51,317 bases of DNA, from positions 1 through 51,317 of IMG/VR virus record IMGVR_UViG_3300005563_001252. One strand, given 5' to 3'. How positions within the stretch are numbered: the stretch's first letter is position 1; each line of letters opens with the position of its first letter. Position numbers and translations under genes: made by a program. The notes below the pieces were generated by a model that searched no databases, was not told the origin of the DNA, and saw only the letters and a program-made list of their open reading frames with translations. This DNA comes from a virus. This document shows positions 1 through 36,238 of the stretch, piece after piece.

Positions 1-1558
<1,558 letters not shown>

Positions 1559-1587
<29 letters not shown>

Positions 1588-1759
1588 TACCATTGTGTGT
1601 CGTTGATGTTGCTGTGTTGGGTTGGTTGCCGGCCAGCCAGCTTTTCACGGCTTGGGCGGCAAGCAAGCGGATCAAGGGCCGCATGCTTGATGTGTTTTGA
1701 AGCATATCAGCTGCCACAAAGGGTGAGTCGGGTCGCCTTCCTTGTCCGCCTTTTCTCAT
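1559..1759 (-). CDS. Small protein coupled to the recombinase start
   Basis: This 66-aa protein has a ribosome site (AGGAGA) ahead of its ATG. The ATG overlaps the ThiF stop as ATGA, and the C terminus (NDLRTV) overlaps the start of the recombinase gene in another frame. A gene of the same layout, ending SDLRTL, precedes the second recombinase (39598-39765). The two share a short hydrophobic/helical stretch (RLLAAQAVKSWL versus LLRMLAEQVANEI). No family was recognised. Its position suggests a recombinase partner, such as a directionality factor, or a translational-coupling leader; both are inference. Confidence 0.6.
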
Positions 1760-2517: not shown

Positions 2518-2518
2518 C

Positions 2519-5437: not shown

Positions 5438-5448
5438 GGTGATGGCTT

Positions 5449-10423: not shown

Positions 10424-10485
10424 GCGGTTCTCCTTTTGTTGTGGTTGAGACCCACATTATCCTTCATTACCTCAGGGGTGAGAGT

Positions 10486-19657: not shown

Positions 19658-19665
19658 GGAAAACT

Positions 19666-21023: not shown

Positions 21024-21431
21024 ATGATGAACGTGAAGATTGTTGCACGGCAGTCGCTGATACATGGCCGACTGAACCTTCGTAAAGGCGAAGTCGCGGA
21101 AGTTTACGATGCGGTCGCCCAGGATCTGATCCGGGCGTCGCTAGCGGAAGCTGTCAAGGTGGAGCAGCCGGTGGCCCCTGCGAGTAAGGCCAGTGCGAGT
21201 GCCCCGAAGGCCACTCGTACCAAGAAGGAAGCACCTCCGGCGGGAAGCACTGCAGTGCAGACGTCTGCACTGGTGGCAGATGGAGGCAGTAACGCTCCGC
21301 TCACCTCTCCTGCTGCAGAGGGCGAGGTCGATGGAGCGCCAGGTTCTGCTCCGGATAGCGGAGCTCCGAGCGGCCAAGTTGAGGAGGCCAGCTCGGGTGG
21401 GCAGGAGCCCGCGGGCGTCGGGGAGGAATGA
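21024..21431 (+). CDS. Hypothetical head protein with low-complexity tail
   Basis: This 135-aa protein (MMNVKIVARQSLIHGRLNLR) has a short ordered N-terminal domain (about 45 residues) and an Ala/Pro/Ser/Glu-rich tail. Small proteins of this kind lie between capsid and connector genes in related phages and may decorate or stabilise heads. GGAG lies five bases before the ATG at 21024. The perfect palindrome at 21253-21272 is inside its tail region. Confidence 0.65.
   Translation: MMNVKIVARQSLIHGRLNLRKGEVAEVYDAVAQDLIRASLAEAVKVEQPVAPASKASASAPKATRTKKEAPPAGSTAVQTSALVADGGSNAPLTSPAAEGEVDGAPGSAPDSGAPSGQVEEASSGGQEPAGVGEE
21253..21272. repeat. Perfect 20-bp palindrome containing TGCAGACGTCTGCA
   Basis: CAGTG-CAGACGTCTG-CACTG reads the same on both strands. 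Its 14-base centre recurs exactly at 28087-28100 and 34294-34307 and with one change at 36212-36225. It lies in the low-complexity part of the head-protein gene. Confidence 0.8.
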
Positions 21432-21434
21432 TCG

Positions 21435-21779
21435 ATGTCGCTCGTTTCCTTGGATGTGGCCAAGCTGCACCTGAAAGTGGATGAAGTCGACGAGGATTCG
21501 AGTATCTCGATCTACCTGGGAGCGGCGGAGCAATCCGCCGTTCAGTTTCTCAATCGTCAGGTATTCGAGACTGACGCGTTGATGCAGGCAGCCCTCACGG
21601 CAGGGACGGCTGGCGAATCTCCGATGGTCGTGAATGACGCCATCAAGGCCGCCATCCTGCTGATCCTCGGCCACCTGTACGAGCACCGCTCGGACGTCGT
21701 GGAGGTGCGAGATATCTACGAGCTTCCGCGCGGGTCCTTGTTTCTGCTGCAGCCATTTCGTAAGTGCATGGGGGTGTGA
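21435..21779 (+). CDS. Head-tail connector, gp6-like
   Basis: The 114-aa HK97 gp6-like connector begins SLDVAKLHLKVDEVDEDSSI and is followed by an all-helical body (IYLGAAEQSAVQFLNRQVF, AIKAAILLILGHLYEHR). It forms the ring between portal and tail. Its stop overlaps the next start by one base. Confidence 0.88.
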   Translation: MSLVSLDVAKLHLKVDEVDEDSSISIYLGAAEQSAVQFLNRQVFETDALMQAALTAGTAGESPMVVNDAIKAAILLILGHLYEHRSDVVEVRDIYELPRGSLFLLQPFRKCMGV

Positions 21780-22120
21780 TGCAGCTGACAGAGCCAACAG
21801 CAGGCGAGCTGGACCGACGTGTCGAGATCCGCCGCCGCACAGATTTGCCATATCTCGACAGCGAGGTGCGGCCAGACCTGACAGACCAGCGGAAGCGCTG
21901 GGCAAAGATTGAACCTGTGGGTGCGGCGACCTACGCTGCGAGCGTTCAGACCGAAGCGAAGGTAACGCATCGGGTCTATCTCCGTCACATCGACGGGATC
22001 ACCATCGATAACGAGGTGGTTCACGGCACGACGGTGTATCGGGTTAGGCGTTCGATGTCGATGAATGGGGCGAAGCGCTTCACGATGCTGGAAGTAGAGG
22101 AGTTGGGCGATGGCCAATGA
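21779..22120 (+). CDS. Head-tail adaptor (phage head-tail joining protein)
   Basis: The 113-aa protein has the head-tail joining pattern: GELDRRVEIRRRTD at the start, a tryptophan (KRWAKIEPVG), and strands ending YRVRRSMSMNGAKRFTMLEV. It sits in the usual order after the gp6-like connector. The ATG 21779 overlaps the upstream stop. Confidence 0.86.
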   Translation: MQLTEPTAGELDRRVEIRRRTDLPYLDSEVRPDLTDQRKRWAKIEPVGAATYAASVQTEAKVTHRVYLRHIDGITIDNEVVHGTTVYRVRRSMSMNGAKRFTMLEVEELGDGQ

Positions 22121-22550
22121 TGCGGCAGTGTATCTCCACGTCGACGGCTTCGATGGCTTCGACAAGTCGATTGACTTCGACAAGAAGCAGATCAGGCGGG
22201 CGATGACCTTGACGGGGCGTCTCATGCAGAAGGGCGCTCAGAAGCGGGTGAACAGCTCGGCCCGTTCGCAACCGGGCCAGTATCCGGGGCGCCGCAAGGG
22301 CATCTTGCGCAAGTCGATCAAGTTCAAGGTTTCCCGGTCTGGCTTCCTGGTGCGTATCGCGCCGCAGAAGATCACGGGCATGGAGCGGTTCTATCCCGCC
22401 TTCCTGAATTATGGCGTGAAGCGGAAGAAGTCAGGGTCGCTCAGAGTGCAGCCGCGCGGAAACTACATGGTGGACGAGCTGGCCGACCGCAACTCCGAAA
22501 TTCAGAACATTCTTGCGAGCGCTTTTGGTAAGGCGCTCGTCATTCGATAG
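22110..22550 (+). CDS. HK97 gp10-type tail-completion protein
   Basis: This 146-aa basic protein has the gp10-like pattern (KQIRRAMTLTGRLMQKGAQ, then PGRRKGILRKSIKFKV and FYPAFLNYGVKRKK). It acts at the head-tail junction or in tail completion. It overlaps the adaptor gene by 11 bases. Confidence 0.82.
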   Translation: MANDAAVYLHVDGFDGFDKSIDFDKKQIRRAMTLTGRLMQKGAQKRVNSSARSQPGQYPGRRKGILRKSIKFKVSRSGFLVRIAPQKITGMERFYPAFLNYGVKRKKSGSLRVQPRGNYMVDELADRNSEIQNILASAFGKALVIR

Positions 22551-22557
22551 GACCCCT

Positions 22558-23148
22558 ATGAAACTCACCCCAATCGTTACGGCGATGCGTGATCGTTGCC
22601 TCTTCTTCGAGCGCCGGGTGTTCGGCGGCATTGACTGGGATGTCCTGGAAGAGGCCGGCAAGTTGCAAGCACCGAGTGCCTACGTGATCGTCGGCGACGA
22701 CGATCCCGAGCCGAACAAATTCCAGAGCGTCAGTGCCCAGGATGTGAAAGACCAGTTTGAGGTCGTGGTGGTGCTGGAAGCGCCGGACCAGAAGTCGCTG
22801 ACCCGGATTGACCAGGTGCACGACGTACGTGCGCTGCTGGTCTTGGCGCTCGTCGGCTGGGAGCCAGCGCCAGAGTATGACCCTATCGAGTACGAGGGCG
22901 GCCAGCTGGTGCTGATCAATCGCCATCGCTTGGTGTACCGGTTCTCCTTCTCAGCCGGTTGGGCGTTGGGTCGTACGCAAGCATCTGATCCTCCCGAGAC
23001 GTTCGAGGAATGGAGGAAGGACAACTTCCCGCCTCTGGAAGGAATCACGATTAACCTCGACGCGATCTCTCCGATGGTGGACAAGAACATTAAACCAACC
23101 GGCCCGGATGGGCGAATCGAAACCATCATGAAAAAGGACTTCACATGA
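22558..23148 (+). CDS. Tail terminator-type protein
   Basis: The 196-aa protein begins MKLTPIVTAMRDRCLFFERR, with strands AYVIVGDDDP and FEVVVVLEAPD. By position (after gp10, before the Mu-like sheath) and these features it is a tail terminator of the Mu gp37-like type that ends tail polymerisation. The ATG at 22558 follows the upstream stop by seven bases. Its end overlaps the next gene by ATGA. Confidence 0.72.
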   Translation: MKLTPIVTAMRDRCLFFERRVFGGIDWDVLEEAGKLQAPSAYVIVGDDDPEPNKFQSVSAQDVKDQFEVVVVLEAPDQKSLTRIDQVHDVRALLVLALVGWEPAPEYDPIEYEGGQLVLINRHRLVYRFSFSAGWALGRTQASDPPETFEEWRKDNFPPLEGITINLDAISPMVDKNIKPTGPDGRIETIMKKDFT

Positions 23149-23333
23149 ACACTGAACGCACCATCACTGTGAAGCCGTGCGCCGGCCGGATTGTTCCGGA
23201 CCCGGCGCGCGGCGACGACTTGCCGGCAGATGGCCGGAGCGTACCGCGCAATACCTACTGGCTGCGCGCCCTGAATGCCGGCGACGTTGAAGTCGTGGAG
23301 CCGGCCGCCAAGAAAACCGCTGCGAAAGGCTAA
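23145..23333 (+). CDS. DUF2635-type small tail protein
   Basis: This 62-aa protein (TITVKPCAGRIVPDPARGDD, then VPRNTYWLRALNAGDVEVVE) matches DUF2635, a short protein encoded before the sheath in Mu-like tail clusters. Role unknown. Confidence 0.82.
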   Translation: MNTERTITVKPCAGRIVPDPARGDDLPADGRSVPRNTYWLRALNAGDVEVVEPAAKKTAAKG

Positions 23334-23339
23334 TGAACC

Positions 23340-24830
23340 ATGACCGTTCCGTTCAATACCACCCCGGCAGACGCCCGAGTCCCACTCTTCTATGGCGAAG
23401 TCGACAACAGCATGGCGAACAGTGCGACCACCACGCTGCGCCGCCTGTTCATCGCCCAGGTGAACGATGACCAAGTGATCGACAGCAAGCTGCAGATCCT
23501 GACCCGCGCAAGTGACGCCGCTGCGCTGGGCGGCACCGGCTCGATGCTGGCGGCCATGTACAACCGTTGGCGCAAGACTGATCCCGCCGGTGAGCTGTGG
23601 GTAGTGCCTGTGAAGTTGGACACAGGTGTTCAGGCGACCGGGACCGTCACCATAACTGGTGTGGCCACCGAAGCCGGCCTGATCAACCTGTACGTCGGTG
23701 CCACTCGTGTGCGCGCAGTGGTGGCCGTGGGGCAGACCGCAAACGATACGGCGGCGGCGGTCGCGGCGGCAGTGAACGCCTCTACCGTTCTTCCCGTCAC
23801 GGCGACCGTCGCCGCTGGCGTTGTCACGCTGAAGGCACGTTGGAAGGGCGACACGGGTAACGATATTCGCCTGGCGATCAATGCCAAGGGCGCCGAGTCG
23901 AACGAGAAGACACCGGCTGGCGTAGCCGTTGCGCTTTCGAATCCGTCGGGGGGCGTTGGTGCACCCGATCTCGCGTCAGTCCTGGCGCTGGTGGGCGACG
24001 AGGAGTTCGAGTTCATCTGCCATCCGTACTCCGATGCAACCAGCCTGGATGATCTGCGCGAGTGGATGAACGATACCTCCGGGCGCTGGTCCTTCGCGCA
24101 GCAGCTGTGGGGCCACGTCTACACGGCGCGGCGCGGCACAATGGGTGAGCTGGTGGCCGCTGGTCGCGCACGCAATGACCAGCACATGACGATTGCCGGC
24201 TTTGAGCCGACGGCTCCTGATCCCATCTGGGAGAAGGCCGCAGGCTACGCTGCTCGCCAAGCGGTGTTTTTGTCGATCGATCCCGCCCGCCCGACGCAGA
24301 CCGGGGAGATCGTAGGAGATACGCCGGCACCAGCTGGTCAGCGATTCGTGTGGCAGGAGCGTCAATCGCTGCTGTCCAATGGTATTGCTACGCAGACCTA
24401 CTCAGGTGGTGCAACCCGTGTGGAGCGCGCGATCACGACCTACCAGAAGAACGCGTACGGCCAGGCCGACGATTCGTACCTGGACAGCGAGACGATGCAC
24501 ACCACGGGCTACGTGATGCGTTTTTTGAAATCGATCATCACCAGCAAGTATGGTCGCCACAAGTTGGCCGACGACGGCACGCGCTTCGGCGCCGGCGATG
24601 CTCTGGTGACGCCGCTGAGTATTCGTGCGGAGCTGATCACGGCTTATCAGGAGCTGGAGCGTCGCGGCATCGTGGAGAACTCCGAGCTGTTCGCGAAGTA
24701 CCTGATCGTCGAGCGTGCGGCTGACAACCCGAATCGGCTCAACGTGCTGTTCCCGCCTGACTACGTGAACCAGCTGCGCGTCTTTGCGCTGTTGAACCAG
24801 TTCCGCTTGCAATACGCGGAAACTGCATAA
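23340..24830 (+). CDS. Contractile tail sheath (Mu gpL-like)
   Basis: The 496-aa sheath protein has a Mu gpL-like N terminus (VPFNTTPADARVPLFYGEVD), an inserted Thr/Ala/Val-rich beta domain (about 100-200) and a conserved C terminus (VLFPPDYVNQLRVFALLNQF). It forms the contractile outer tube and defines the phage as a myovirus. Confidence 0.94.
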   Translation: MTVPFNTTPADARVPLFYGEVDNSMANSATTTLRRLFIAQVNDDQVIDSKLQILTRASDAAALGGTGSMLAAMYNRWRKTDPAGELWVVPVKLDTGVQATGTVTITGVATEAGLINLYVGATRVRAVVAVGQTANDTAAAVAAAVNASTVLPVTATVAAGVVTLKARWKGDTGNDIRLAINAKGAESNEKTPAGVAVALSNPSGGVGAPDLASVLALVGDEEFEFICHPYSDATSLDDLREWMNDTSGRWSFAQQLWGHVYTARRGTMGELVAAGRARNDQHMTIAGFEPTAPDPIWEKAAGYAARQAVFLSIDPARPTQTGEIVGDTPAPAGQRFVWQERQSLLSNGIATQTYSGGATRVERAITTYQKNAYGQADDSYLDSETMHTTGYVMRFLKSIITSKYGRHKLADDGTRFGAGDALVTPLSIRAELITAYQELERRGIVENSELFAKYLIVERAADNPNRLNVLFPPDYVNQLRVFALLNQFRLQYAETA

Positions 24831-24850
24831 GTCAAAGCATCGTCAACCTC

Positions 24851-24881
24851 GCGGCCCGGCTCTCCCGGGCCGCATCTTTTT
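24851..24881 (+). terminator. Rho-independent terminator between sheath and tube
   Basis: GCGGCCCGG and CCGGGCCGC form a nine-pair stem with a tight loop, followed by ATCTTTTT. Terminators after abundant structural genes set stoichiometry or allow partial read-through. Confidence 0.85.
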
Positions 24882-24892
24882 AGGGGTCTCTA

Positions 24893-25240
24893 ATGGGACA
24901 AAAAACTGCAGGTACTTGCTACGTCAAGGCAGATGGCACTCAGCTGACGATTACCGGCGGGTGCGAGGCACCGTTGATGCCGGTCAAGCGCGAGACGATC
25001 ACGCCCGGCTTCTTCAAGGAAGAGGACATGGTTCCTTACGTGAAGGTCGATGCGGTGCATACGCCTGACTTCCCGCTGGACAAGCTGATCAACGGCACCG
25101 ACATGACGATCACCGTCGAATTCAAGAACGGCAAGGTCTACGTCCTGGCCGGTGCCTACCTGGTGGGTGAACCGTCGAGTGCAGGGGATGACGGCAAGGT
25201 TGCCCTCGAATTCAACGGTATCAAGGGGACCTGGCAATGA
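24893..25240 (+). CDS. Tail tube protein (Mu gpM-like)
   Basis: The 115-aa tube protein (GTCYVKADGTQLTITGGCEA, then VDAVHTPDFPLDKLINGTDM) has the pattern of Mu-like tail tube subunits, and it follows the sheath. The stop overlaps the next start by ATGA. Confidence 0.9.
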   Translation: MGQKTAGTCYVKADGTQLTITGGCEAPLMPVKRETITPGFFKEEDMVPYVKVDAVHTPDFPLDKLINGTDMTITVEFKNGKVYVLAGAYLVGEPSSAGDDGKVALEFNGIKGTWQ

Positions 25241-25761
25241 AGCTCAGCAAGCCGATTCAGGCGCACGGCGCCGAGGTCACCGAGGTCGTGTTGCGCGCGC
25301 CGACCGGCGCGGACATTCGCTTGCTCAAAGCACTCCCGTTCTGGCTGACCGAGGACGAGGTGATTGACATCAACACGAACGTCGCGGCCAAGTACGTTGC
25401 ACACCTGGCGAGTATCCCGCCATCTTCTGTCGATAAGCTCTCCGGGCCTGACCTCAACCAGCTGTTCTGGGAGGTGGTCAACATCTTCAGTCCGGTGGAC
25501 GGGCTCGCGGAAGACGTCGTACTGCGTGAGCCGACCGGGGCGGATATTCGTGCTGTTCGCGCGATGCCGTACTGGGTAGCAGAAGAAGGGAAGTTCTCGG
25601 TGAACACGGCTGCAGCGATGGCATACATCGAGCGGCTCGGGGGGCTTTCCTCTAATGAGGTCGACGAGCTGCCGCCGGCGGCTCTTGGCCGACTCTTCTG
25701 GCAGGTGGTCGGTTTTTTCAATCGTGGGGAATCGCAGAATCAGGCGAGTTCCTCAACCTAG
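25237..25761 (+). CDS. Tail assembly chaperone, short form, with internal duplication
   Basis: The 174-aa Mu gp41-like chaperone consists of two similar halves: VVLRAPTGADIRLLKALPFW to DLNQLFWEVVNIF and VVLREPTGADIRAVRAMPYW to ALGRLFWQVVGFF. Family members usually have one such unit. Near its end the frame contains TTTTTTC (25713-25719), where part of the ribosomes should slip to the -1 frame. Located just before the tape measure gene, as in most tailed phages. Confidence 0.88.
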   Translation: MKLSKPIQAHGAEVTEVVLRAPTGADIRLLKALPFWLTEDEVIDINTNVAAKYVAHLASIPPSSVDKLSGPDLNQLFWEVVNIFSPVDGLAEDVVLREPTGADIRAVRAMPYWVAEEGKFSVNTAAAMAYIERLGGLSSNEVDELPPAALGRLFWQVVGFFNRGESQNQASSST

Positions 25762-25895
25762 TCTACGACTGCGCCGAGTTTTGGCGCATCGATCCGGAAA
25801 TCGAGTTGATGCGACCGATATCGCTGGTGATGGAACACCACGCCGAGGCGTGGCGCATCGTCCAGATCCGACGACGAGAGGCGGAAAATGGCTGA
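25237..25895 (+). CDS. Tail assembly chaperone, -1 frameshift product
   Basis: The 0 frame reads GGT TTT TTC; slipping by -1 at T-TTT-TTC (25713-25719) continues as QSWGIAESGEFLNLVYDCAEF and ends EAENG at 25895. The -1 extension has protein-like composition (FWRIDPEIELMRPISLVMEH) and covers the otherwise gene-free gap before the tape measure gene, overlapping its start. The fusion is about 219 aa. A programmed frameshift at this position is a conserved feature of tail-chaperone genes in dsDNA phages. Confidence 0.83.
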
Positions 25896-27672
25896 TAAGT
25901 TTCAACTCAAGGCGCTCATCACAGGCGTCGACAAGCTATCCCCGATGCTGGCTGGCATCCGCAAGAACGTCGCCAATCTGCGTAAGGGGCTGAAGTCCAG
26001 CAGCCTGGGAGAGAAGATCTCCTTCGGCGAGCTGGTGCAGGGTGGGGCGGTCGCTCTACCGATCATTGCAGCGACGAAGGCTGCAATCGACTTTGAATCG
26101 GCAATGGCTGATGTGAAGAAGGTCGTCAACTTCGACACGCCTCAGCAGTTCAAGGACATGAGCAAGGACGTGCTTGATCTGTCCAAGCGGCTCCCGATGG
26201 CAGCAAAGGACATTGCTGCCATCGTGGCGGCGGGTGGGCAGGCGGGGTTCAAACGGGACGAGCTCGGACGCTTTGCTGAAGACGCGGTCAAGATGGGCGT
26301 CGCCTTTGACCAGTCAGCGGCGGAAGCCGGCGAGATGATGGCCAAGTGGCGTACCTCATTCAAGTTGTCCCAGGACGAGGTCGTCGCACTCTCGGACAAG
26401 ATCAATTATCTGGGTAACACGGGGCCGGCCAAGGCCAAGCAGATCTCGGCCATCGTCACCCGGATTGGCCCGCTGGCAGAGGTGGCGGGCCTGGCGTCTG
26501 GTCAGATCGCTGCGATGGGTGCAACGCTTGCTGGCGTGGGCATTCAGGAGGACGTCGCCGCAACGGGGATGAAGAACTTCTTCCTGACCCTGACCGCCGG
26601 CGCCTCGGCCACCAAGCAGCAAAAGGAAACCTTCAAGGCATTGCGGCTGGATGCGAAGGCATTGGCCGTCGATATGCAGAAAGATGCGCAAGGCACCTTG
26701 CTGCGTGTGCTGACGGCGGTAAGCAAGGTCGACAAGTCGAAGCAGGCCTCGGTGCTGCAGCAGCTGTTTGGGCGCGAATCTATCGAAGCGATTGCTCCGA
26801 TGCTGACCAATCTCGGCCTGCTGCGGGATAACTTGCAGAAGGTGGGCGAGGTGACGCAATACGCTGGCTCGATGAATCAGGAGTATGCGGCGCGCGCCGC
26901 AACGACCGCCAACAACATACAGCTCTTCAGTAATCGGGTGGTCGGCCTGGCCGTCAACGTTGGCAATGTGCTGCTGCCTCCGCTCAACTCCTTCCTCGGC
27001 CTTGTTGGCCCGATGGCCGACGGGATAGCCGGGCTGGCAGCAGCTAACCCATGGCTCGTCAAGGGGTTGATCGGCGCTGCTGTCGGCTTTGGCGCCCTGA
27101 GATTGGCTGTGTTGGGGGCAACGGTCGCGACGAAGTTGTTCCTGGCTGTCACCAATCTGACTCCGGTTGGCATTGCCATCCGTCTACTTGCCCTCGCAGC
27201 AGGATTCGTGATCGCGAACTGGCGATCAATTGGACCCTTCTTCAGTGCGTTGTGGGACGGAATCGGGACGGTGTTCCGTGCAGGCTGGGAGATATTGAAG
27301 ACCCTGTTCTCCTTCACTCCGCTCGGATTCATTATCAAGAACTGGGAGCCGATTGTGGCGTGGTTCCGCGACATGTGGGCGCGGATTAAGCCTTACGTGC
27401 AGCCGCTAATTGACGGGTTCAATTGGGTCACCGGCAGCAGTGACAAGCTGTCGAGCGCAGCTGCCAGTGTGGAAGGAAAACGCCTTCCACAGGCCGGGCA
27501 ATGGAGTCAGCAGGTTCTGGCTGGCGCTGGTGGCCAGAACCTCAAGGGGGACATGGTCGTTCGCTTCGAGAACGCCCCCGCAGGCATGCGGGTTGATCCT
27601 GGTCAGAGCAATCAGCCCGGCCTGGCTATTTCGTCGAAGGTCGGGTATCGAACCCTGGGAGCAAACAATTGA
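25888..27672 (+). CDS. Tail tape measure protein
   Basis: The 594-aa protein sets tail length. It has the phage tape-measure domain (FESAMADVKKVVNFDTPQQF, LPMAAKDIAAIVAAGGQAGF) and hydrophobic segments at about 365-455 (GLIGAAVGFGALRLAVLGAT, IRLLALAAGFVIANW). The repeated GIGTVFRAGWEILKT-like motifs are typical of Mu-like tails. Its stop overlaps the next start. Confidence 0.92.
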   Translation: MADKFQLKALITGVDKLSPMLAGIRKNVANLRKGLKSSSLGEKISFGELVQGGAVALPIIAATKAAIDFESAMADVKKVVNFDTPQQFKDMSKDVLDLSKRLPMAAKDIAAIVAAGGQAGFKRDELGRFAEDAVKMGVAFDQSAAEAGEMMAKWRTSFKLSQDEVVALSDKINYLGNTGPAKAKQISAIVTRIGPLAEVAGLASGQIAAMGATLAGVGIQEDVAATGMKNFFLTLTAGASATKQQKETFKALRLDAKALAVDMQKDAQGTLLRVLTAVSKVDKSKQASVLQQLFGRESIEAIAPMLTNLGLLRDNLQKVGEVTQYAGSMNQEYAARAATTANNIQLFSNRVVGLAVNVGNVLLPPLNSFLGLVGPMADGIAGLAAANPWLVKGLIGAAVGFGALRLAVLGATVATKLFLAVTNLTPVGIAIRLLALAAGFVIANWRSIGPFFSALWDGIGTVFRAGWEILKTLFSFTPLGFIIKNWEPIVAWFRDMWARIKPYVQPLIDGFNWVTGSSDKLSSAAASVEGKRLPQAGQWSQQVLAGAGGQNLKGDMVVRFENAPAGMRVDPGQSNQPGLAISSKVGYRTLGANN

Positions 27673-28913
27673 GCGGACAGAGCGAGTGGCGTAAGCGATT
27701 GCAGCCGGCGTCGTTTCGTGGCGTTCCCTTTGAGGTGGACGACGAATCGACCCCGGTGGGGCGTGATGTGGTGGTGCACGAGTATTCGAAGAAGGATGTG
27801 AGCCTGGTCGAGGACATGGGGCGTAAGACGCGGGTCTATCGCTTCTCTGCATACGTCATTGGAACGGACTGCCTGTCGAAGCGCGATGCGCTATTAAAGG
27901 AGCTGGATAAGCGTGGCAGTGGCGAGTTGGTCCATCCGTGGTACGGACGCTTGAAAGTGACGCCGAGCAGTGATTGCTCGGTCTCACACAGCCGTCGAGA
28001 CGGCGGAATGGTTCGCTTCGAGCTCTCGTTTATTGATAGCGGTGCACTGGAGTTCCCTTCGTCAACTCCCAATACTGCAAAGCAAGTGCAGACGTCTGCA
28101 GAGAACGTTCGGTCTTCGGCGACTGATCGGTTCAAGGCGGCCTTGGAGAAGGTGAATATGGCCAAGGTCAAGGTCAACTCTATCGCTTCCAGTATTTCCT
28201 CGATCTACAGCACAGTGGACAGCTACATGAGACCGCTAACGCAGCTGTTCGGATCGACCACCGGGTTGTTGAATACCGTGATGAATGCGCCAGCCAATCT
28301 GTCCGGCATGGTGTTCAGCACCTTCGGGGATCTGAATCGCTCCTTCAGCAGCTTCACCGGCTCGAACTCGGCCGCGAGCAGTAGCGCAGCGGCGATTACC
28401 ACTTTGGCCTCCGCCCCCGTTCCAAGCGGGCAGGACGCCCGGCAACTGCACACAGCAGTGATCGGCCTTCTGCAGGATGCCGCAGTGTATGACGCGCTGC
28501 TGGCCGGAGCGGAGATTCCGATTGTCTCCGCGCCTGGTGCGCCGGCCAGCGTACCGGATCTGTCGTCGCAGGTTGCCGCGCCGGTTGCAGTGGCTGAGGT
28601 TCCGGTCGCGGCGGATGTCGTACTTGCTCGAGATGCGCTGGGCGAGGCGATCCATGCAGTAGCGCTGTCGGCCTCTCTTGCGCATGGCCAGACGCTTGGT
28701 GACGCACGCCACGCATGGCGAGCTCATATGTCGCAGGTTGCGCGTGGAGGGCTGCGAATCCGCTCCTATACGCCGGCGGTGACGACGCCGGCTGTCGTGC
28801 TGGCCTATAGGCTGTACCAAGACGCTGGAAGGGCCAAGGAGATAGCGAGCAGGAACCAGCTAAGGCACCCCGGCTTCGTGCCGGCGATTGAGCTTCAGGT
28901 TGCGAGAAAGTAG
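27669..28913 (+). CDS. DNA circularisation / baseplate protein (Mu gpN-like)
   Basis: This 414-aa protein begins with the DNA-circularisation N-terminal domain (RLQPASFRGVPFEVDDESTP, HEYSKKDVSLVEDMGRKTRV), which in Mu gpN is part of the baseplate hub. A TTG start overlaps the tape-measure stop as TTGA. The middle is Ala/Ser-rich. A palindromic TGCAGACGTCTGCA is at 28087-28100 within the gene. Confidence 0.88.
   Translation: MSGQSEWRKRLQPASFRGVPFEVDDESTPVGRDVVVHEYSKKDVSLVEDMGRKTRVYRFSAYVIGTDCLSKRDALLKELDKRGSGELVHPWYGRLKVTPSSDCSVSHSRRDGGMVRFELSFIDSGALEFPSSTPNTAKQVQTSAENVRSSATDRFKAALEKVNMAKVKVNSIASSISSIYSTVDSYMRPLTQLFGSTTGLLNTVMNAPANLSGMVFSTFGDLNRSFSSFTGSNSAASSSAAAITTLASAPVPSGQDARQLHTAVIGLLQDAAVYDALLAGAEIPIVSAPGAPASVPDLSSQVAAPVAVAEVPVAADVVLARDALGEAIHAVALSASLAHGQTLGDARHAWRAHMSQVARGGLRIRSYTPAVTTPAVVLAYRLYQDAGRAKEIASRNQLRHPGFVPAIELQVARK
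28087..28100. repeat. Palindrome TGCAGACGTCTGCA, copy 2
   Basis: Exact copy of the 14-base palindrome at the centre of 21253-21272, here inside the gpN-like gene. Confidence 0.8.
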
Positions 28914-30044
28914 ATGGAAGACGATAACGAACTAGTGACACTCACCGTAAATGGGCAGGACTTCGCCGGATGGAAGAGTGTTGAAATTGGGGCAGGTGTG
29001 GAGCGGCAGGCTCGGGACTTCTCTCTTGGAGTCACTTGGAGGTGGCCTGGTAGCGAATCCTTCGATACCAAGATCAAGCAAGGTGACCGCTGCGAGGTTC
29101 GTATCGGAAACGATTTAGTCCTGACAGGCTGGGTGTTTGCGACTCCGATTCGTCATGACCGGAAGCAGATCGAATTGAAGATCTCCGGCCGTTCGCTGAC
29201 CGCGGACCTTGTCGATGCCTGTCCGGCGGATAAGCCGGGCCAGTGGCGCAACCAGACGATTGAGAAGGTGCTGCGGTCGCTGATCGCTCCATATCCGAAC
29301 GTGCTGGTCGTGAATGAAGGCCGTGATTCGACCGTCGTTAAGGACCACACGGTCAAGCCTGGTGAAACCGTCTTTGAGTCCATCGACCGACTGCTCACGA
29401 TTTCTCGCCTGTTTTCTACTGACGATGGCCAGGGCCGTCTTGTCATGGCCCGGCCGGGCAGTGCTGGCCGGGCCCATGATGCGTTGGAGATTGGCGAGCG
29501 CGGAAATATTCTCTCCTGCGATGCCCCGCTCGACTTCTCGAAGGTGTTTTCGGAATATGTCTGCAAGGGGCAGCATGCGGCCGACGATGATGACGAGGCC
29601 GATGCTTCGGGCGCCGAGGTCGTGGCGAGCAATGTCGATGACCGGATAGGCAGGTACCGTCGCCTGGTCATTAACGAGAGCGGCCAGGTAACGAAGGACC
29701 TGGCGCAGTGGCGGGCCGATTGGGAGCGCGAGCATCGGATATCAAAGGCGCTTGAGCTCACCTACAAGGTACAGGGCTGGCGCCAGTCGAACGGCGCTCT
29801 GTGGGTGCCCAACCAGACGGTGCGCGTGCGTGATCCCTTGGTTGGTCTTGATCGGGATATGTTGATCGCCGAGCTCACTTACCAAGAGGATCGAAGCAGC
29901 GGGCGGATTTGCACGATGAAGGTGGCTCCGCCTGACGGCTTCGAGCCTGAGCCGAATGACAAGCGCAAGCGCATGAAGCTGAAGAAGTCAAAATCAAAGG
30001 ATGGCTTCGAATACCTATTGCCGTCGGACTGGGAGAAGAACTGA
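28914..30044 (+). CDS. Baseplate hub (Mu gpP-like)
   Basis: The 376-aa hub protein has the gpP/late-control-D-type pattern: VTLTVNGQDFAGWKSVEIGA, LVLTGWVFATPIRHDRKQIE and LKISGRSLTADLVDACP. It forms the central hub below the tail tube. The C terminus is basic (KRKRMKLKKSKSK). It starts right after the gpN-like stop and overlaps the next gene by one base. Confidence 0.9.
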   Translation: MEDDNELVTLTVNGQDFAGWKSVEIGAGVERQARDFSLGVTWRWPGSESFDTKIKQGDRCEVRIGNDLVLTGWVFATPIRHDRKQIELKISGRSLTADLVDACPADKPGQWRNQTIEKVLRSLIAPYPNVLVVNEGRDSTVVKDHTVKPGETVFESIDRLLTISRLFSTDDGQGRLVMARPGSAGRAHDALEIGERGNILSCDAPLDFSKVFSEYVCKGQHAADDDDEADASGAEVVASNVDDRIGRYRRLVINESGQVTKDLAQWRADWEREHRISKALELTYKVQGWRQSNGALWVPNQTVRVRDPLVGLDRDMLIAELTYQEDRSSGRICTMKVAPPDGFEPEPNDKRKRMKLKKSKSKDGFEYLLPSDWEKN

Positions 30045-30577
30045 TGGGACTCAATACGATGCTCGCCAGATGCACGCTAGTGCTATCCAAGGCCAGTGCC
30101 AAGATTCAGCGACTGCAGGTACGTCTCCTGGCCGGCGAGACGAAGGACAACATCGAGATGCTGGAGCAGTATGGGTTTACCTCGATTCCGATGGCTGGAG
30201 CTAGCGGCCTGGCGCTGTTTATGGGTGGCGACCGATCCAGCGGGGTAGTGCTGGCCGTTGGTGACAAGCGTTATCGGCTCACGGATCTCAATCCTGGTGA
30301 AGTCGCGATCTATAACCACGAAGGCGCGAAGGTGGTGATCAAGGAGGGAAGGATTGTTGAGGTCGAGTGCGATGAATATCGCGTCACCACCAAGCGCTAC
30401 CTTGTGCAGGCTGAGGAGACTATCTCGTTGAAGGCCGGTGGCCTGGCAATCGAGGCTGAGCAGGCAACCTCCAGCGCCGCACTGGAAGCGCCGGACATGA
30501 TCATTGCCGGGCTGAGCCACAAGGGACATCGTCACAAGGAACACGACGGCCCGTATGTGGGAGGTCCCGAGGCATGA
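30044..30577 (+). CDS. Baseplate assembly protein V / Mu gp45-like spike
   Basis: The 177-aa protein matches the Mu gp45 family: an OB-like N-terminal part (ETKDNIEMLEQYGFTSIPMA, GGDRSSGVVLAVGDKRYRLT), then repetitive short strands and a His-rich end (LSHKGHRHKEHDG). The spike punctures the outer membrane; the His-rich end may bind a metal. Confidence 0.9.
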   Translation: MGLNTMLARCTLVLSKASAKIQRLQVRLLAGETKDNIEMLEQYGFTSIPMAGASGLALFMGGDRSSGVVLAVGDKRYRLTDLNPGEVAIYNHEGAKVVIKEGRIVEVECDEYRVTTKRYLVQAEETISLKAGGLAIEAEQATSSAALEAPDMIIAGLSHKGHRHKEHDGPYVGGPEA

Positions 30578-30978
30578 ATGAGCTGACGGATGAGCAGCGG
30601 CGAGCGTTGTACCGGCGCGCAATTTTTATCAGCCTCTTCTCTTGGCGTCGCGCGGAGGACGGTGATCTCCCTGGTGAAGAAGACCAGCGAGGGTGGTGGG
30701 GCGATAGTTTTCCTTCGTTCGCGAATGACCTGACCGGTTCGCGCTTGTACCTGCTTCAGCGCCGCACGATCACGCAGCAGACCCTCCGAGACGCGAAGGA
30801 CTATGCCGATGAGGCATTGCAGTGGCTGGTGGACGACGGGCACGCTGCGCAGGTTTCGGTGACGGTCGAGCGCAATGCCAGGGAGGCTGTTCGCATGCTG
30901 GTGGAGGTCGATCTGCTGGCCGACGATCCGCTGGTGCTTGAAATTGACGATGTATGGAGGGTAATCAATGCCGTTTGA
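30574..30978 (+). CDS. Baseplate protein (Mu gp46-like)
   Basis: The 134-aa protein resembles Mu gp46/gpW-like baseplate wedge proteins (LYRRAIFISLFSWRRAEDGD, RGWWGDSF, TLRDAKDYADEALQWLVDDG). It overlaps both neighbours and has the standard Mu-like order. Confidence 0.87.
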   Translation: MNELTDEQRRALYRRAIFISLFSWRRAEDGDLPGEEDQRGWWGDSFPSFANDLTGSRLYLLQRRTITQQTLRDAKDYADEALQWLVDDGHAAQVSVTVERNAREAVRMLVEVDLLADDPLVLEIDDVWRVINAV

Positions 30979-32017
30979 CATTCCAACCTTGCCGGTTCTG
31001 ATCGGACGGACACGCGCAGATCTGGCGCCGGCAAGTAATAGCGGCGCGCTTCGCCGCGCCGACGCTGAGGTGCTTGCTCGTGCCCATGGCGCGGCGGCCG
31101 CCGGACTTTACGACCATCAGGACTGGATCTCCAAGCAGATCCTGCCAGATACCTGCGACGATGACGTCCTGCTACGGCATGCGCGCTTGAAGCTGCGATC
31201 TGGTCGGCGCGAGGCCACGGCGGCGGCGGGGCGCGCGACATTTGTCGGGCAGGCCGGAGCAGTAGTCGAGGCTGGTTCGCTCTATCAGACCGAGGATGGG
31301 CGGCGTGTAAGCGTGACTGCTGACACAGAGATCGCGGGTGAGACGAGCGTGCCGATCCGGTCGGTTGACCTTGGCCAAGTCGGCAATCTTGCTCCAGGGA
31401 CGGGGTTGACGGCGGTGTCGCCCGTGCTGGGCGTCAGTGATGCGGCAGTTGTTGATGCCAATGGGGTGACTGGTGGAACCGACCAGGAGACGATTGAGCA
31501 GCTGCGTGCACGGGTGATTCGCGCTTGGCGCAACGTGCCTCACGCAGGTAACGAAGATGATTACGTCGACTGGGCCCTTGAGGTGCCAGGCGTCACGCGA
31601 GCTTGGTGCCGGCGCAACTGGACGGGTCCAGGGACGGTGGCAGTTTTCGTGATGCGTGACGGTGACGAAAATCCCTTCCCGAGTGCGGCCGACCTACAAG
31701 CGGTCTACGACCATATCGAGGCGTCCAGGCCTCTGCAGGCCGAGCTCATCGTTCTAGCGCCTGCTCCCAAGCGGCTCAACTTCCAGATCCGCGCCGAGCC
31801 GGACACGCCAGCTGTCCGTCGCGCGATTGATGCTGCGCTACGAGATCTGGTCTTCGCGGAGGCCGAGCTGGGGGAAATGTTGCTTCGCTCGCACATGACC
31901 CAAGCGATCAGTGGTGCGCCAGGGGAAAACGATCACGAGCTGATCTCGCCGGCGGGTAACGTCGTTCCTCTCAAGAATGAGTTGATTGTCTTCGGAGATC
32001 CTATCCAATGGCTATGA
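30968..32017 (+). CDS. Baseplate J-like protein (Mu gp47)
   Basis: The 349-aa protein matches baseplate J/gp47 (PFDIPTLPVLIGRTRADL, RIGNL-type segment VGNLAPGTGLTAVSP, GTDQETIEQLRARVIRAWRN, EVPGVTRAWCRRNW). It is a wedge component of the baseplate. It overlaps the next gene by 10 bases. Confidence 0.92.
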   Translation: MPFDIPTLPVLIGRTRADLAPASNSGALRRADAEVLARAHGAAAAGLYDHQDWISKQILPDTCDDDVLLRHARLKLRSGRREATAAAGRATFVGQAGAVVEAGSLYQTEDGRRVSVTADTEIAGETSVPIRSVDLGQVGNLAPGTGLTAVSPVLGVSDAAVVDANGVTGGTDQETIEQLRARVIRAWRNVPHAGNEDDYVDWALEVPGVTRAWCRRNWTGPGTVAVFVMRDGDENPFPSAADLQAVYDHIEASRPLQAELIVLAPAPKRLNFQIRAEPDTPAVRRAIDAALRDLVFAEAELGEMLLRSHMTQAISGAPGENDHELISPAGNVVPLKNELIVFGDPIQWL

Positions 32018-32601
32018 ACGTTGATGCGTATGTCGACCAGCTGCGGCAATTGCTTCCGCCGGGGCCAGCGTGGGACCCAGAGTTTGCGCCAGAGATCGAC
32101 AAGACGTTGCAAGGGATCGCTCCTGAGCTGGCCAGGATCGACGCCAGAGGCGACGTGCTGCTGACTGAAATGGACCCGACATCTGTCCGCGAGATGCTGA
32201 CGGACTACGAGCGGGTCATGGCGTTGCCGGACGAGTGCCTGGGGGAATCCCCCAGCTTTGACGTCCGACGCTCGGCGGTCGTGCAGCGCTATTCCGCAGT
32301 CGGAGGCAATACGCCTGCCTACTTCGAGGCGTTGGCCAGGGCTATGGGCTATCCGGACGCAAAGGTCTTGGAGTGGCATGCGCCGCGCTTCCGGCGAGCT
32401 CGTTTCGGGCGAGCTCGTTTTGGCACATGGAAGACGCAGTTTATCTGGACTCTGCGGCTTGGAGCGCCGCGTGCGGGTGGGCGGCGCTTCGGTGCAACGC
32501 TGTTTGGTGAGCGCTTCGGCGCCAACCCGAATGCAAGTGTGGAATGCATTGTGCGCCGGTGGGCGCCGGCGCACCTCCTCGTGATCTTCGAATACCAATA
32601 A
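32008..32601 (+). CDS. Baseplate wedge protein (Mu gp48 / DUF2313-like)
   Basis: The 197-aa protein begins VDAYVDQLRQLLPPGPAWDP, the classic gp48/YmfQ signature, and contains CLGESPSFDVRRSAVVQRYS. The C-terminal part has a short duplicated unit (RRARFGRARFG) from a 15-base direct repeat near 32395-32425. It connects baseplate and tail fibre. Confidence 0.9.
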   Translation: MAMNVDAYVDQLRQLLPPGPAWDPEFAPEIDKTLQGIAPELARIDARGDVLLTEMDPTSVREMLTDYERVMALPDECLGESPSFDVRRSAVVQRYSAVGGNTPAYFEALARAMGYPDAKVLEWHAPRFRRARFGRARFGTWKTQFIWTLRLGAPRAGGRRFGATLFGERFGANPNASVECIVRRWAPAHLLVIFEYQ

Positions 32602-32612
32602 CAGGACTGAAT

Positions 32613-33746
32613 ATGGATTATCCGAAAAGTGTCCCAGGCGTCGGCTTGGTAGATGGAAAATTTGTTGACGAGAACGAACAGACAGGGCAGCAGGGCTCGC
32701 TGATTCCGGCGGCATGGGGTACTGCAGTTACAGATGAAATTCTGAATGTTCAGGCCGAAGCTGCAATTCAACCTAACGAGGGCAAAGTTAATCAGCTCGT
32801 GAGCGCGATACGAGCGATTGCTGAGAAGAGGGGGATGCTCTCTGCCGTGGCCAGCGGTACCGCGAACGCCATCACGGCGACGCTTGATAGCGAGTTTTCT
32901 CAGCTCGCCAACGCTCAGTCGTTTTCCATTATCTCGAAGTTCGCCAACACTGCGGCGGTCACGGTGGCGCTCACTCTTGGTGCTACAGAGATAGCGGCGT
33001 TGCCTGTTGTGAGGGGCAATAATTTGCCTTTGTCGGGCGGAGATATTCCTGCGCCTGGCTACCCCATGCGTTTATGCTACAGCGCGGGCTTTGGGGCTCT
33101 GATCTTGCTCAATCCCGCGACCGGATCAGGGAGCGGGGGGTTGTTTGCCTCGTCACTCACTACTGTCAATTCATCTGGATCGCTGTTACCTAATATGGTG
33201 GGCGGGACGGTTGTGGTGAGTGCAGGTGCAAGCAATACGCAGACTCTGCCTTCCGCCGCGGCCGTCGGAGTCGGGCGGCGTATTGAGCTCTTGAACATAG
33301 GCGCGGGCGCCGCCACAGTGGCTCGGACAGGCGCAGATGGAATCGTCACCGGAAGCGCATCCGTCAACAGCGTGCTGTTGGGCACCGGAGACTCTCTTAC
33401 GCTGGAGAGCAATGGGGTGAGCACTTGGTACGCTGTAGGCGGCTCTGCGCAACTGAAGTCGGCGGCCGCCTTCCGCTCGCTGTTGTCCGGTAACGGCTAT
33501 GCGCAGCTTCCCAGCGGCATCATCATCCAGGCCGGGGCGGCATCCGTCACCGCTGGATCTTATACAGACGTCACTTTCCCCATCGCCTTCCCGACTGCTT
33601 GTATGTCGGTAATTGCCAACCCAGGCTTGGCAGGATCGGCGCAGTCTCAATACTCCGGCGCCGGTAACGTGACTTTGACAGGCTTTCAAATTGCAATGAA
33701 CCAAGGCACCGGCGTGACGAATCGCTGGTTCGCAATGGGCTACTAA
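32613..33746 (+). CDS. Tail fibre protein
   Basis: This 377-aa receptor-binding fibre begins [20 protein letters not shown], as in short fibres of Mu-like and P2-like phages, and contains [20 protein letters not shown]. The rest is Ser/Gly/Ala/Thr-rich beta structure (about 130-377). The ATG 32613 follows the gp48-like stop by 11 bases. The adjacent chaperone gene supports the role. Confidence 0.87.
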
Positions 33747-33757
33747 TAGGAGGGTAC

Positions 33758-34255
33758 GTGTTTTATTCCCCATCGACGAAAGGCTTCTACGATGAAGCGA
33801 TCCATGGCGTACGTAAATTGCTGATTCTCGATCAGAACTGGTCTGGCGAGGAGGGTGCTGAAGAGCGTAACACTCTCATCGACAATCCTGCTTGCCTGAT
33901 TCCTGTGGATGCGATCGATATTTCCGAAGAAGAATATCTGGCTCTGTTGGCGGGTCAGTCTGCCGGAAAAGTGATCGTTCCCGGGGCGGGCGGAGCGCCC
34001 GTGCTGGCCGAACCAGCACCTCCCACGCCGGAGCAAAAGGTTGCAGCAACGCTGGCTGATGTCGACGTTTTGTTGGGGGAGGCAACAAAGAAAATTGCGC
34101 CTTTGCAGGACGCTGTCGATCTTGAGATCGCCACGCCCGATGAGAAGGCCGCACTGGCCGCTTGGAAACGCTATCGCGTCTTATTGAGCCGCGTTACTCA
34201 GCAAGCCGGCTATCCGGATGTAATCGAATGGCCGGCGCGGCCAGTTGCGAGTTGA
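33758..34255 (+). CDS. Tail fibre assembly chaperone (Tfa-like)
   Basis: The 165-aa protein begins [17 protein letters not shown] and ends WPARPVAS, typical of fibre chaperones. It has [16 protein letters not shown] and the C-terminal [23 protein letters not shown] at 33758 follows AGGAGGGTAC. It folds and attaches the fibre encoded just upstream. Confidence 0.87.
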
Positions 34256-34265
34256 TGGATTGAGC

Positions 34266-34294
34266 AAGGCTCGCGAATGCGGGCCTTTCTTTTT
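34266..34294 (+). terminator. Terminator at end of tail operon
   Basis: AAGGCTCGC and GCGGGCCTT pair (one mismatch-type G-T) around a GAAT loop, followed by TCTTTTT. A copy of the TGCAGACGTCTGCA palindrome follows immediately. Confidence 0.75.
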
Positions 34295-34307
34295 GCAGAC
34301 GTCTGCA
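34294..34307. repeat. Palindrome TGCAGACGTCTGCA, copy 3
   Basis: Exact 14-base copy lying directly after the tail-operon terminator and before the holin gene. Confidence 0.8.
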
Positions 34308-34339
34308 CACCGCTTTGGCGGTTTTATCAGGGGATATGA

Positions 34340-34744
34340 ATGCCAGAACCAACAACAGGGGCGGTGATCGGCGCCGGATCGGGGGCGTTTGCCGTCGGCA
34401 CCATCACCATTACAGGGTCATTCCTGGGACTGCAGTACGAGATGCTGCTGGCGGGGTTGGCCGGGGGTATGGCCATGCTCTCCAATCTACCGCCGGTGTC
34501 TCGCCCTCGCGCCGTCATGATCCTGATCACCAGCGCGCTCATGGGCGGCTACGTCGGTCCGATGCTGCATGCGTGGACTATTCAGTCCGACGTTTTCGCC
34601 TGGTCCAGCAAGTATTCGGAGGCTACCCGGCTCTTTAGCGGCTTCGTGATCGGGGCGAGTTCCCAGACGGTCATCCCGCTGGGGCTGGGCTGGGTTCGGA
34701 CCAAATTCGGAGGGGGTAACATCAACCAGGAGTCACCCAAATGA
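34340..34744 (+). CDS. Putative holin
   Basis: This 134-aa protein has three hydrophobic segments (about 5-35, 50-75 and 95-115: GLQYEMLLAGLAGGMAMLSN, VMILITSALMGGYVGPML, FSGFVIGASSQTVIPLGLGW). As the first gene of the lysis cluster it is the likely holin or a related membrane protein. Its stop overlaps the next ATG by four bases. Confidence 0.75.
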   Translation: MPEPTTGAVIGAGSGAFAVGTITITGSFLGLQYEMLLAGLAGGMAMLSNLPPVSRPRAVMILITSALMGGYVGPMLHAWTIQSDVFAWSSKYSEATRLFSGFVIGASSQTVIPLGLGWVRTKFGGGNINQESPK

Positions 34745-35040
34745 TCAAGTCTCTTCTCTCCACAGACTATCTGCTGGCGGTCAATCTCGCCGCCAGCCTG
34801 GTGCTGTTCCTTCATTGCGCCTTTGCGCTCAATCGCATGGATCATCGCAGTAACCATGTCGTGCGCGCCTGGTACGTGATCACCGGGCTGGGAAGCTTCG
34901 GCGTCCTGGTCGGGCCATTGTACGGATACCTTCATCCCCAGCCAATGGAGGTCATCTCAAACATCGGCGTCACTGGCCTCATGGCGGGCGGCTGGCTGTA
35001 TCGCAATCGCCGTGCCACCGATAAAAGGGGACCAGAATGA
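34741..35040 (+). CDS. Second small membrane protein of the lysis cluster
   Basis: This 99-aa protein has three hydrophobic segments (LLAVNLAASLVLFLHCAFAL, WYVITGLGSFGVLVGPLYGY and NIGVTGLMAGGWLY). It is either a second holin or an antiholin-type partner. It overlaps the upstream gene and the endolysin by four bases each. Confidence 0.72.
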   Translation: MIKSLLSTDYLLAVNLAASLVLFLHCAFALNRMDHRSNHVVRAWYVITGLGSFGVLVGPLYGYLHPQPMEVISNIGVTGLMAGGWLYRNRRATDKRGPE

Positions 35041-35612
35041 ACCTCACACTCCAGCAGCTCCAGCTCATCATGCCCGCCGCCACGCGGGCATCGTTGTTTC
35101 TGGAGCCTCTCAATGCGGCCATGCAGGAGTTCGGGATCGATACCCGACTGCGCATGGCCGGGTTCCTATCCCAGCTCGCCCATGAGTCGGGGCAGTTTCG
35201 TTTCATGGAGGAGCTGGCCAGCGGCGCCGCCTATGACAACCGCGCCGACCTGGGCAACACCAATCCGGAGGCGATCCGCATCGCGGCCGCCCACGGCAGC
35301 ACGCCGGGCCGCTTCTGGAAAGGCCATGGCCCGATCCAGATCACCGGCTACCTCAACCACCTGGCCGCCATGATGGCACTGGAGCTGGATTGCGTGGAGC
35401 AGCCACGCCTGCTGTGCGAGCCGGTCCACGGCTGCCGCGCTGCCGGCTGGTTCTGGAAGGTCAACAGCCTGGCCAGGTGGGCGGACGCAGGCGACATCGA
35501 TGGCGTGAGCGATGTGGTCAATCGGGGAAAGAAAACGGCCGCCATAGGCGACTCGAACGGCTTTGCTGAGCGCAAGGCCTTCTATGACCGCGCCCTGAAG
35601 GTGATCCCATGA
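35037..35612 (+). CDS. Endolysin, glycoside hydrolase family 19
   Basis: The 191-aa GH19 (chitinase-like) endolysin cleaves peptidoglycan. Family blocks are RMAGFLSQLAHESGQFRFME (catalytic Glu in HES), GRFWKGHGPIQITGYLNHLA and VSDVVNRGKKTAAIGDSNGF. There is no signal peptide, so export should depend on the holin. Confidence 0.92.
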   Translation: MNLTLQQLQLIMPAATRASLFLEPLNAAMQEFGIDTRLRMAGFLSQLAHESGQFRFMEELASGAAYDNRADLGNTNPEAIRIAAAHGSTPGRFWKGHGPIQITGYLNHLAAMMALELDCVEQPRLLCEPVHGCRAAGWFWKVNSLARWADAGDIDGVSDVVNRGKKTAAIGDSNGFAERKAFYDRALKVIP

Positions 35613-36124
35613 ACCGGCTTCAGACCATAGCGATAGCCGCGGGCTCTGTCGTGCTGGCCCTCTGCCTGGGGCTTATCGCTGGCTTCCTATGGGGTGGCCA
35701 CCACCAGGCGCAGATCGATGAGGGCAGGGCGGCAAAGGTCAGCGAGGACCATGCCCTCGCCCTGGCCGGCGCCACGGAGCGATACCGGGAGGCCGAGCGC
35801 AATGGCCAGCGCGCCTTCGCCAACATCGAGGCCACCCGTCAACAGGAGAAAGAGAATGCAACGAAGCAAATTGAAGTTCTGCGCGGTCAGCTGCGCACTG
35901 GTGCTGAGCGGCTGTCAGTCGCCATCGACGCGGCTAGCGCAGCCGCCGCTGCCGCAACTGCCGGCGCTGGGGATCGAGAAGCGCGAGCCAACCTTCTGCC
36001 AGAGGCTGCTGAGCGAATTCTCGATTTCGCCCGAGAAGGCGGCGACATCGTGCGGGATCTTAATGCCTGCGTCGACAAGTACCACCACGCAGAGCAAATG
36101 ATGCAAGAAGCAGGAAAGCAGTAA
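35609..36124 (+). CDS. Rz-like i-spanin
   Basis: This 171-aa protein has one N-terminal membrane segment (AGSVVLALCLGLIAGFLWGG, about 11-30), then a long charged helical periplasmic part (TERYREAERNGQRAFANIEA). This is the inner-membrane spanin that fuses membranes at lysis with the nested lipoprotein. It overlaps the endolysin by ATGA. Confidence 0.88.
   Translation: MNRLQTIAIAAGSVVLALCLGLIAGFLWGGHHQAQIDEGRAAKVSEDHALALAGATERYREAERNGQRAFANIEATRQQEKENATKQIEVLRGQLRTGAERLSVAIDAASAAAAAATAGAGDREARANLLPEAAERILDFAREGGDIVRDLNACVDKYHHAEQMMQEAGKQ
35856..36101 (+). CDS. Rz1-like o-spanin lipoprotein nested inside Rz
   Basis: An 81-aa reading frame lies wholly within Rz in another frame: MQRSKLKFCAVSCALVLSGC with the lipobox LSGC (Cys20), then Pro-rich LAQPPLPQLP. 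AGGAG precedes the ATG by 8 bases. Nested Rz1 lipoproteins are the standard arrangement, so this is a confident call although the frame is hidden inside another gene. Confidence 0.87.
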   Translation: MQRSKLKFCAVSCALVLSGCQSPSTRLAQPPLPQLPALGIEKREPTFCQRLLSEFSISPEKAATSCGILMPASTSTTTQSK

Positions 36125-36203
36125 GGCGGCACGCCGAGGGGAGCTGCTGATTTACAGCTGGGATCGGGAGGAAGAGCCAGCCGGGCTGTTCTGATCGGAT
36201 GAG

Positions 36204-36238
36204 AAGGAGTGTGCAGACGCCTGCACGTTCCTTTTTTT
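36204..36238 (+). terminator. Terminator after the lysis genes, built on the palindrome
   Basis: Positions 36204-36216 pair with 36221-36233 (13 pairs, two G-T) around a four-base loop, followed by T7. The stem contains TGCAGACGCCTGCA (36212-36225), a one-base variant of the phage's recurrent palindrome. Confidence 0.82.
36212..36225. repeat. Palindrome variant TGCAGACGCCTGCA, copy 4
   Basis: One-base variant of the 14-base palindrome found at 21256-21269, 28087-28100 and 34294-34307. Here it forms the upper stem and loop of the terminator after the lysis genes. Confidence 0.7.

Follow-up and report, generated by a model that had tools for sequence, protein, structure and literature searches.

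ParB-family proteins and the sites they bind are the closest described counterparts of the element considered here, a short palindrome repeated in the virus record IMGVR_UViG_3300005563_001252 (51,317 nucleotides, 51.3 kb; this whole stretch is hereafter called the window). N15 and P1 are extrachromosomal phage-plasmids with ParA/SopA, and they encode a ParB of their own together with its centromere sites, which in N15 are dispersed; the Noc binding sites (NBS) are dispersed as well. The palindrome matches the known chromosomal parS, TGTTTCACGTGAAACA, in length and in its central ACGT (passages of PMC7383237), and the parS sites of Burkholderiales are 16-bp palindromes with a central CG (passages of PMC5450999). 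The passages of PMC11790492 describe KorB of plasmid RK2 as a ParB-family clamp with a 16-bp operator (OB) and long-range gene control, its clamps acting on promoters up to 1.5 kb away, and those of PMC10676424 present VirB as a ParB-type activator using CTP. Orphan ParB-like proteins are common on prophages and largely uncharacterised, and the passages of PMC12704722 that say so name no binding sites for them. Here we propose the palindrome as a candidate parS-type loading site of a phage-encoded ParB-family CTPase clamp (probability about 0.88), which would provide one large group of orphan phage ParBs with a conserved candidate DNA site.

The phage system resembles chromosomal ParB-parS (Spo0J, ParABS) in its ParB_N and HTH_ParB domains, its CTP-binding motifs, and its 16-bp palindrome with central ACGT, but differs in the absence of ParA and of the ParA-binding motif, in the scattered sites, in the long extra C-terminal part of the protein, and in the site halves (GTGCAG in the phages, TGTTTC in the chromosomal site). 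KorB-OB has a different site, and in RK2 KorB is paired with KorA. Noc is also a ParB relative without the ParA-binding motif, and matches the phage ParB in the PDB and in fold, but it belongs to the host chromosome, has a cell-division function, and uses the site TATTTCCCGGGAAATA. Unlike N15 and P1, the present phages show no ParA, and at least the cultured phage VarioGold integrates. The ParB fold and the lack of a ParA-binding motif are shared with the prophage orphan ParB-like proteins (passages of PMC12704722). As far as the available passages of the open-access literature go, we recognised no description of these sites, and the word itself matched solely unrelated work on DNA structure.

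Copies of the palindrome in the window and beyond

The window contains three exact copies of TGCAGACGTCTGCA (21256-21269, 28087-28100, and 34294-34307) and a variant with one mismatch, TGCAGACGCCTGCA (36212-36225); a word count confirmed these four copies, which a preliminary description of the DNA had reported, and the palindromy of the first does extend to 20 bp (21253-21272). Alignment over relatives set the conserved unit at 16 bp, GTGCAGACGTCTGCAC, with bases further out weakly conserved, and sites 1 to 4 show 0, 1, 1, and 1 mismatches to it. The word was also said to exceed chance, and indeed the window has four sites with at most one mismatch to the 16-mer, against none in 60 first-order random windows. 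With up to three mismatches to the word allowed, eight matches were counted, against a mean of 3.17 in dinucleotide shuffles (eight or more in 1 of 100), and the window has no copy of the reversed word, which served as a control. The earlier placement of two sites at terminators and two within genes was roughly right: those at 21256 and 28087 are genic, both encoding V-Q-T-S-A, a T-run follows the one at 36212, and the one at 34294 is directly downstream of a different T-run.

Relative to the terminase gene, the window sites lie at +5.3, +12.2, +18.4, and +20.3 kb, which are the places typical of the family. Unlike phages have sites at like distances from the terminase (about -8, -1 to -2, +5 to +6 [post-capsid], +12, and +19 to +20 kb); the recurrent spots are the parB gene itself, a place upstream of the terminase, another past the capsid gene, the tail genes, and the neighborhood of the lysis genes. 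The +5.3-kb position of site 1 recurs in relatives; the post-capsid and pre-holin sites are retained in relatives though their flanks align poorly; the 16-mer of site 2 is nearly invariant across seven aligned phages despite diverging flanks; and the relative G039 has an exact copy at the place of site 4 (its position 1842). Usually three to eight copies are scattered over phage genomes of 35 to 45 kb, with a median gap of 7.3 kb. The gaps are somewhat more even than random (40 records, mean rank 0.27, 34 of 40 below 0.5), these records being relatives and not independent of each other.

Bacterial genomes were scanned with a 15-mer and viral contigs with the 14-mer, and 33 genomes and 50 viral records were picked among the matches listed (80 loci per scan), favoring Betaproteobacterial genomes. 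Each chosen viral record has the word one to seven times, and none has the reversed word. Across 53 records (2.01 Mb), counting both G and C at position 6 as matches, we found 155, 82, and 32 sites at 0, 1, and 2 mismatches, against 0, 1, and 27 for the control. In the 33 bacterial genomes, chosen for holding the word, copies number between 1 and 10 per genome, and most of those listed sit together in stretches the size of a prophage; the reversed word occurs in none of the genomes. A Herbaspirillum genome of 5.2 Mb has six copies inside 29 kb and none elsewhere. These clusters were tied to prophages by size and a phage-type ParB, not by annotated phage genes. With so few and mostly clustered copies, a host repeat was rejected for these 33 genomes: the word is not common throughout them, which the preliminary description had said would refute its reading. 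The phages of the family are temperate and tailed, with mostly Betaproteobacterial hosts. One contig of a Bacteroidota metagenome-assembled genome (C39 of G027) has three copies, and no phage-type ParB was found there, perhaps because of contamination or another host range.

Association of the sites with a phage ParB

A ParB/Spo0J-family protein is encoded in 37 of the 50 word-holding viral records (16 of 18 fetched in full and 21 of the 32 others); among the 13 without it, seven are under 25 kb, and G074 ends at the gene adjoining parB. All open reading frames (ORFs) were compared among 18 records rich in sites, the window, and Burkholderia phage BgVeeders33, which has no site; ParB was found in 16 of the 18 and in neither BgVeeders33 nor the window. 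No sites occur in nine named relatives that lack this ParB; the annotations of three list different ParB-like proteins of shorter length, which gave no match to the family profile at E 1e-5. A phage-type ParB, matching with E below 1e-80, is present in 18 of the 33 bacterial genomes, distinct from a weaker match that is presumably the chromosomal ParB. In the 12 genomes (13 regions) with sites and ParB on the same contig, each listed site of that contig is at most 37 kb from ParB, sites on other contigs being left out of this comparison.

The reverse search, starting from ParB, kept 80 of 479 relatives, and the word was present at all 80 loci with up to two mismatches, at 77 with up to one, and in exact form at 50. 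Since a peptide pattern covering the ADVCT motif had served in part to find the loci, in-parB sites were left out of a further count, together with discovery records and duplicates; even so, 63 of 68 distinct parB loci have a site outside the gene with up to two mismatches, and 58 with up to one. The corresponding figure for a more distant ParB set is 59 of 76 loci, while 48 of 50 full ParB records have a site at one mismatch or fewer. The reversed word gave one match in 1.18 Mb.

When all perfect 16-bp palindromes at the 80 parB loci were counted blind to the word, GTGCAGACGTCTGCAC came first (50 loci), the next best reaching four. Among 80 loci with more distant ParBs, the two most frequent palindromes were GTGCACACGTGTGCAC (15), a symmetric variant also present in Acidovorax phage Aval, and GTGCAGACGTCTGCAC (13). 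The G/C variant at position 6 tracks the ParB tree, with seven changes over the 96 of 163 loci that could be labeled G or C, against a shuffled mean of 22.3 and a minimum of 17 (300 shuffles). We rejected recognition by single helix-turn-helix (HTH) residues, as the columns that best separate G from C are mostly outside the HTH and follow clades. The parB gene itself contains a site, over the codons A-D-V-C-T at its cysteine motif (23 of 32 genomes with both landmarks). The Ala codon there is GCA in 84 of 95 cases, compared with 17% elsewhere in parB, and GCAGACGTCTGC occurs in 41 of 95, compared with 4% expected; the 68 of 163 parB loci without the peptide do not enter this test.

The word-blind palindrome count, the variant following the ParB tree, the biased codons in parB, the parS-like form of the site (a 16-bp palindrome with central ACGT, repeated in the replicon), and the ParB_N and HTH_ParB domains together make ParB the likely binder. 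A binding site for a phage or host regulator had been suggested, and the phage half of that suggestion came close, since the word accompanies a phage-encoded ParB-family DNA-binding protein.

Several observations weigh against this reading, the whole case for which is comparative. The window has neither a ParB_N domain (PF02195) nor a member of the phage ParB family (0 matches). ParB is also missing from the longer site-bearing viral records G044, G078, and G079, the last of which shares much of the window's backbone (64-89% identity), and from the 217-kb record G043, which has one site. No phage-type ParB appears in 15 of the 33 word-holding bacterial genomes; conversely, among the 50 full ParB records 2 are without a site at one mismatch or fewer, and at 24 of 163 parB loci the stretch examined shows no site beyond parB itself. 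At those 24 loci no other palindrome stood out, and the GTGCAGAC halves were still top (9 of 24). HTH differences between ParBs with G-type and C-type sites are indistinguishable from plain descent, many of the sites are within genes, and none was tied to a promoter.

The phage ParB, its possible action, and rival explanations

The phage ParB has roughly 600 to 950 residues and consists of ParB_N (PF02195), HTH_ParB (PF17762), both above the Pfam cut-off, and an extended C-terminal part that bears a four-cysteine motif. In VarioGold, a phage with six sites, this protein is UYD72083.1. Among 163 ParBs, G[EA]RRxRA is present in 151 and EN.[QH]R in 160. Matches in the PDB were Spo0J, ParB, Noc, and KorB, and with a 706-residue AlphaFold model (mean pLDDT 77.7), Foldseek aligned structures of ParB (CTP/CDP-bound), Noc, and KorB to about the first 235 residues, roughly the first third; no PDB match was seen for the long C-terminal part. 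The protein encoded at L267:3397-5517 (-) and its relatives have four invariant cysteines (residues 259, 262, 282, and 287 in the L267 protein), possibly a metal site, and these are encoded where the in-gene site lies. ParA (PF13614, PF01656) was found in none of 69 ParB records, although both families were detected in 14 of 14 control genomes, and the ParA-binding motif, as given in the passages of PMC12704722, in none of the 163 phage ParBs.

In the mechanism that we propose, a ParB dimer would bind the site through its HTH, close as a CTP-bound ring, and then slide off the site, and sites some 7 kb apart would let the clamps reach much of the phage DNA. The long reach of KorB and the precedent of VirB as a CTP-using ParB-type activator favor a regulatory or organizing clamp, and we consider it an even bet that the system acts, like these two, on phage expression or genome organization and not in plasmid partition. 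Ordinary partition seems unlikely given the absence of ParA and of the ParA-binding motif and given VarioGold, which has parB together with an integrase and is an integrated, mitomycin-inducible prophage, so that plasmid partition is not needed there. More tentatively, and at somewhat less than even odds, orphan ParB on evenly scattered candidate parS sites might coat the genome as a "clamp chromatin" that silences or unsilences late genes, shields the DNA, or compacts it before packaging, a genome-wide control layer common to many otherwise unlike temperate phages and one that PRTRC cassettes could replace. The candidate sites could be removed by synonymous changes, also in VarioGold, which makes the role of a ParA-less phage ParB directly testable.

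A genuine partition system of sites and ParB, using the ParA of the host for a plasmid or replicating stage, is in our view unlikely. A circular Comamonas record of 36.9 kb, filed as a plasmid, does combine phage genes, ParB, and five sites (at most one mismatch), but the missing ParA (69 of 69 records) and ParA-binding motif (163 of 163 ParBs), the integrases of several records, the integrated state of VarioGold, and the dispersed, not clustered, sites all speak against it. The sites might also be ordinary dispersed operators or stoperators of some other protein accompanying ParB, such as a CII/CP76 or YdaS-type regulator. Dispersed repressor sites are known in mycobacteriophages, and the CP76 family occurs in 18 of the 20 compared records, including the window. 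However, BgVeeders33 has a CP76-family gene but neither ParB nor a site; the annotations of Serratia OS31 and P. aeruginosa U5 list CII-like genes, and both lack the site and a ParB of this family; and the parS-like form and the codon-constrained copy in parB also count against such a regulator, which we regard as very unlikely.

That the sites serve to replicate or package the phage DNA or to recombine its modules, with ParB incidental, appears highly improbable: one recurrent spot is directly before HNH/terminase, where cos would be expected, and several sites are at module borders, but other recurrent spots are mid-gene (parB, terminase, and tail genes), and the sites associate with ParB and with its tree. 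Least of all do we credit the mobile terminator-type unit of the preliminary description. Hairpins followed by T-runs exist at window site 36212 and at VarioGold site 5756, but a T-run lies beside 6 of 233 sites (at most one mismatch, related records) against 302 of 10,400 random positions, so that terminator association is not enriched and a terminator unit is contradicted statistically; nor do flanks move with the site, as against a mobile hairpin.

Mosaic structure and other genes of the window

The window looks like a mosaic in which an arm swap removed parB while the late arm, derived from this phage family, kept its four sites (Table 1). Its early arm is 97.8% identical to G134 over the first 7.8 kb and contains the PRTRC-like cassette, in the arm that in the close relative G140 has parB. 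In G140, whose terminase-capsid stretch is 86% identical to that of the window, parB lies close to a stretch of recombinase sequence with 88% identity to the window's. The relatives with the PRTRC arm (G134 to G137) have 2, 2, 2, and 0 sites per whole record, and the ParB-bearing relatives of the late arm, G138 and G140, five each. Within the explanation by a ParB clamp, replacement of the parB arm by the PRTRC cassette would therefore make the window's sites relics or leave them to respond to ParB supplied in trans. The proposed reading would also explain a puzzling repeated word, and the window would be a case of an arm swap that took the protein and left the sites.

Table 1. Positions in the window of the candidate sites and of the genes considered with them
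Feature	Position	Strand	Basis or remark
Serine recombinase adjoining the PRTRC cassette	1..1593	-	sequence
PRTRC-like cassette: ThiF/E1, JAB (with DUF2016), E2-D, alpha-hel2, prokaryotic ubiquitin, weak PRTRC_E	1756..6126	-	
VapE-type replication protein, common to many ParB phages	10441..12993	+	Pfam PF05272
Terminase large subunit	15928..17691	+	tblastn to annotated BgVeeders33; landmark for site positions
Major capsid protein	19654..20961	+	follows portal and protease; similar to relatives' capsid genes; landmark
parS-like site 1	21255..21270	.	exact GTGCAGACGTCTGCAC; about 300 bp past major capsid gene, in ORF 21003-21431
Baseplate hub/DNA circulation protein (Mu gpN type), contains site 2	27669..28913	+	PHROG 184, E 1.3e-95
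parS-like site 2	28086..28101	.	outermost-base mismatch; in gpN/DNA-circulation tail gene
parS-like site 3	34293..34308	.	outermost-base mismatch; between tail-fibre-assembly and holin genes
Holin (PHROG 198), small membrane-type ORF, lysozyme (PHROG 181)	34340..35612	+	downstream of site 3
parS-like site 4	36211..36226	.	near-centre mismatch; after Rz gene, before ORF 36278-36748

According to plasmid annotations, a ParB-family member is part of PRTRC systems elsewhere. The stretch 38040-51317 encodes a serine integrase, a PAPS-reductase-like gene, a phage GPA replication protein (PF05840), and an Ogr/Delta zinc-finger gene (PF04606), which suggests a second element adjoining the phage, a P2-like element or remnant. 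Within it, 46046-47586 (-) encodes two related 240-residue proteins in tandem, and the short protein of 49913-50329 (-) resembles a PAAR repeat protein; together they are perhaps a secretion effector and immunity locus. Beside the lysis cassette, 36796-37515 (+) encodes an SOS-response associated peptidase (SRAP), a gene also found in G039 (89% identical), G100, and G101.

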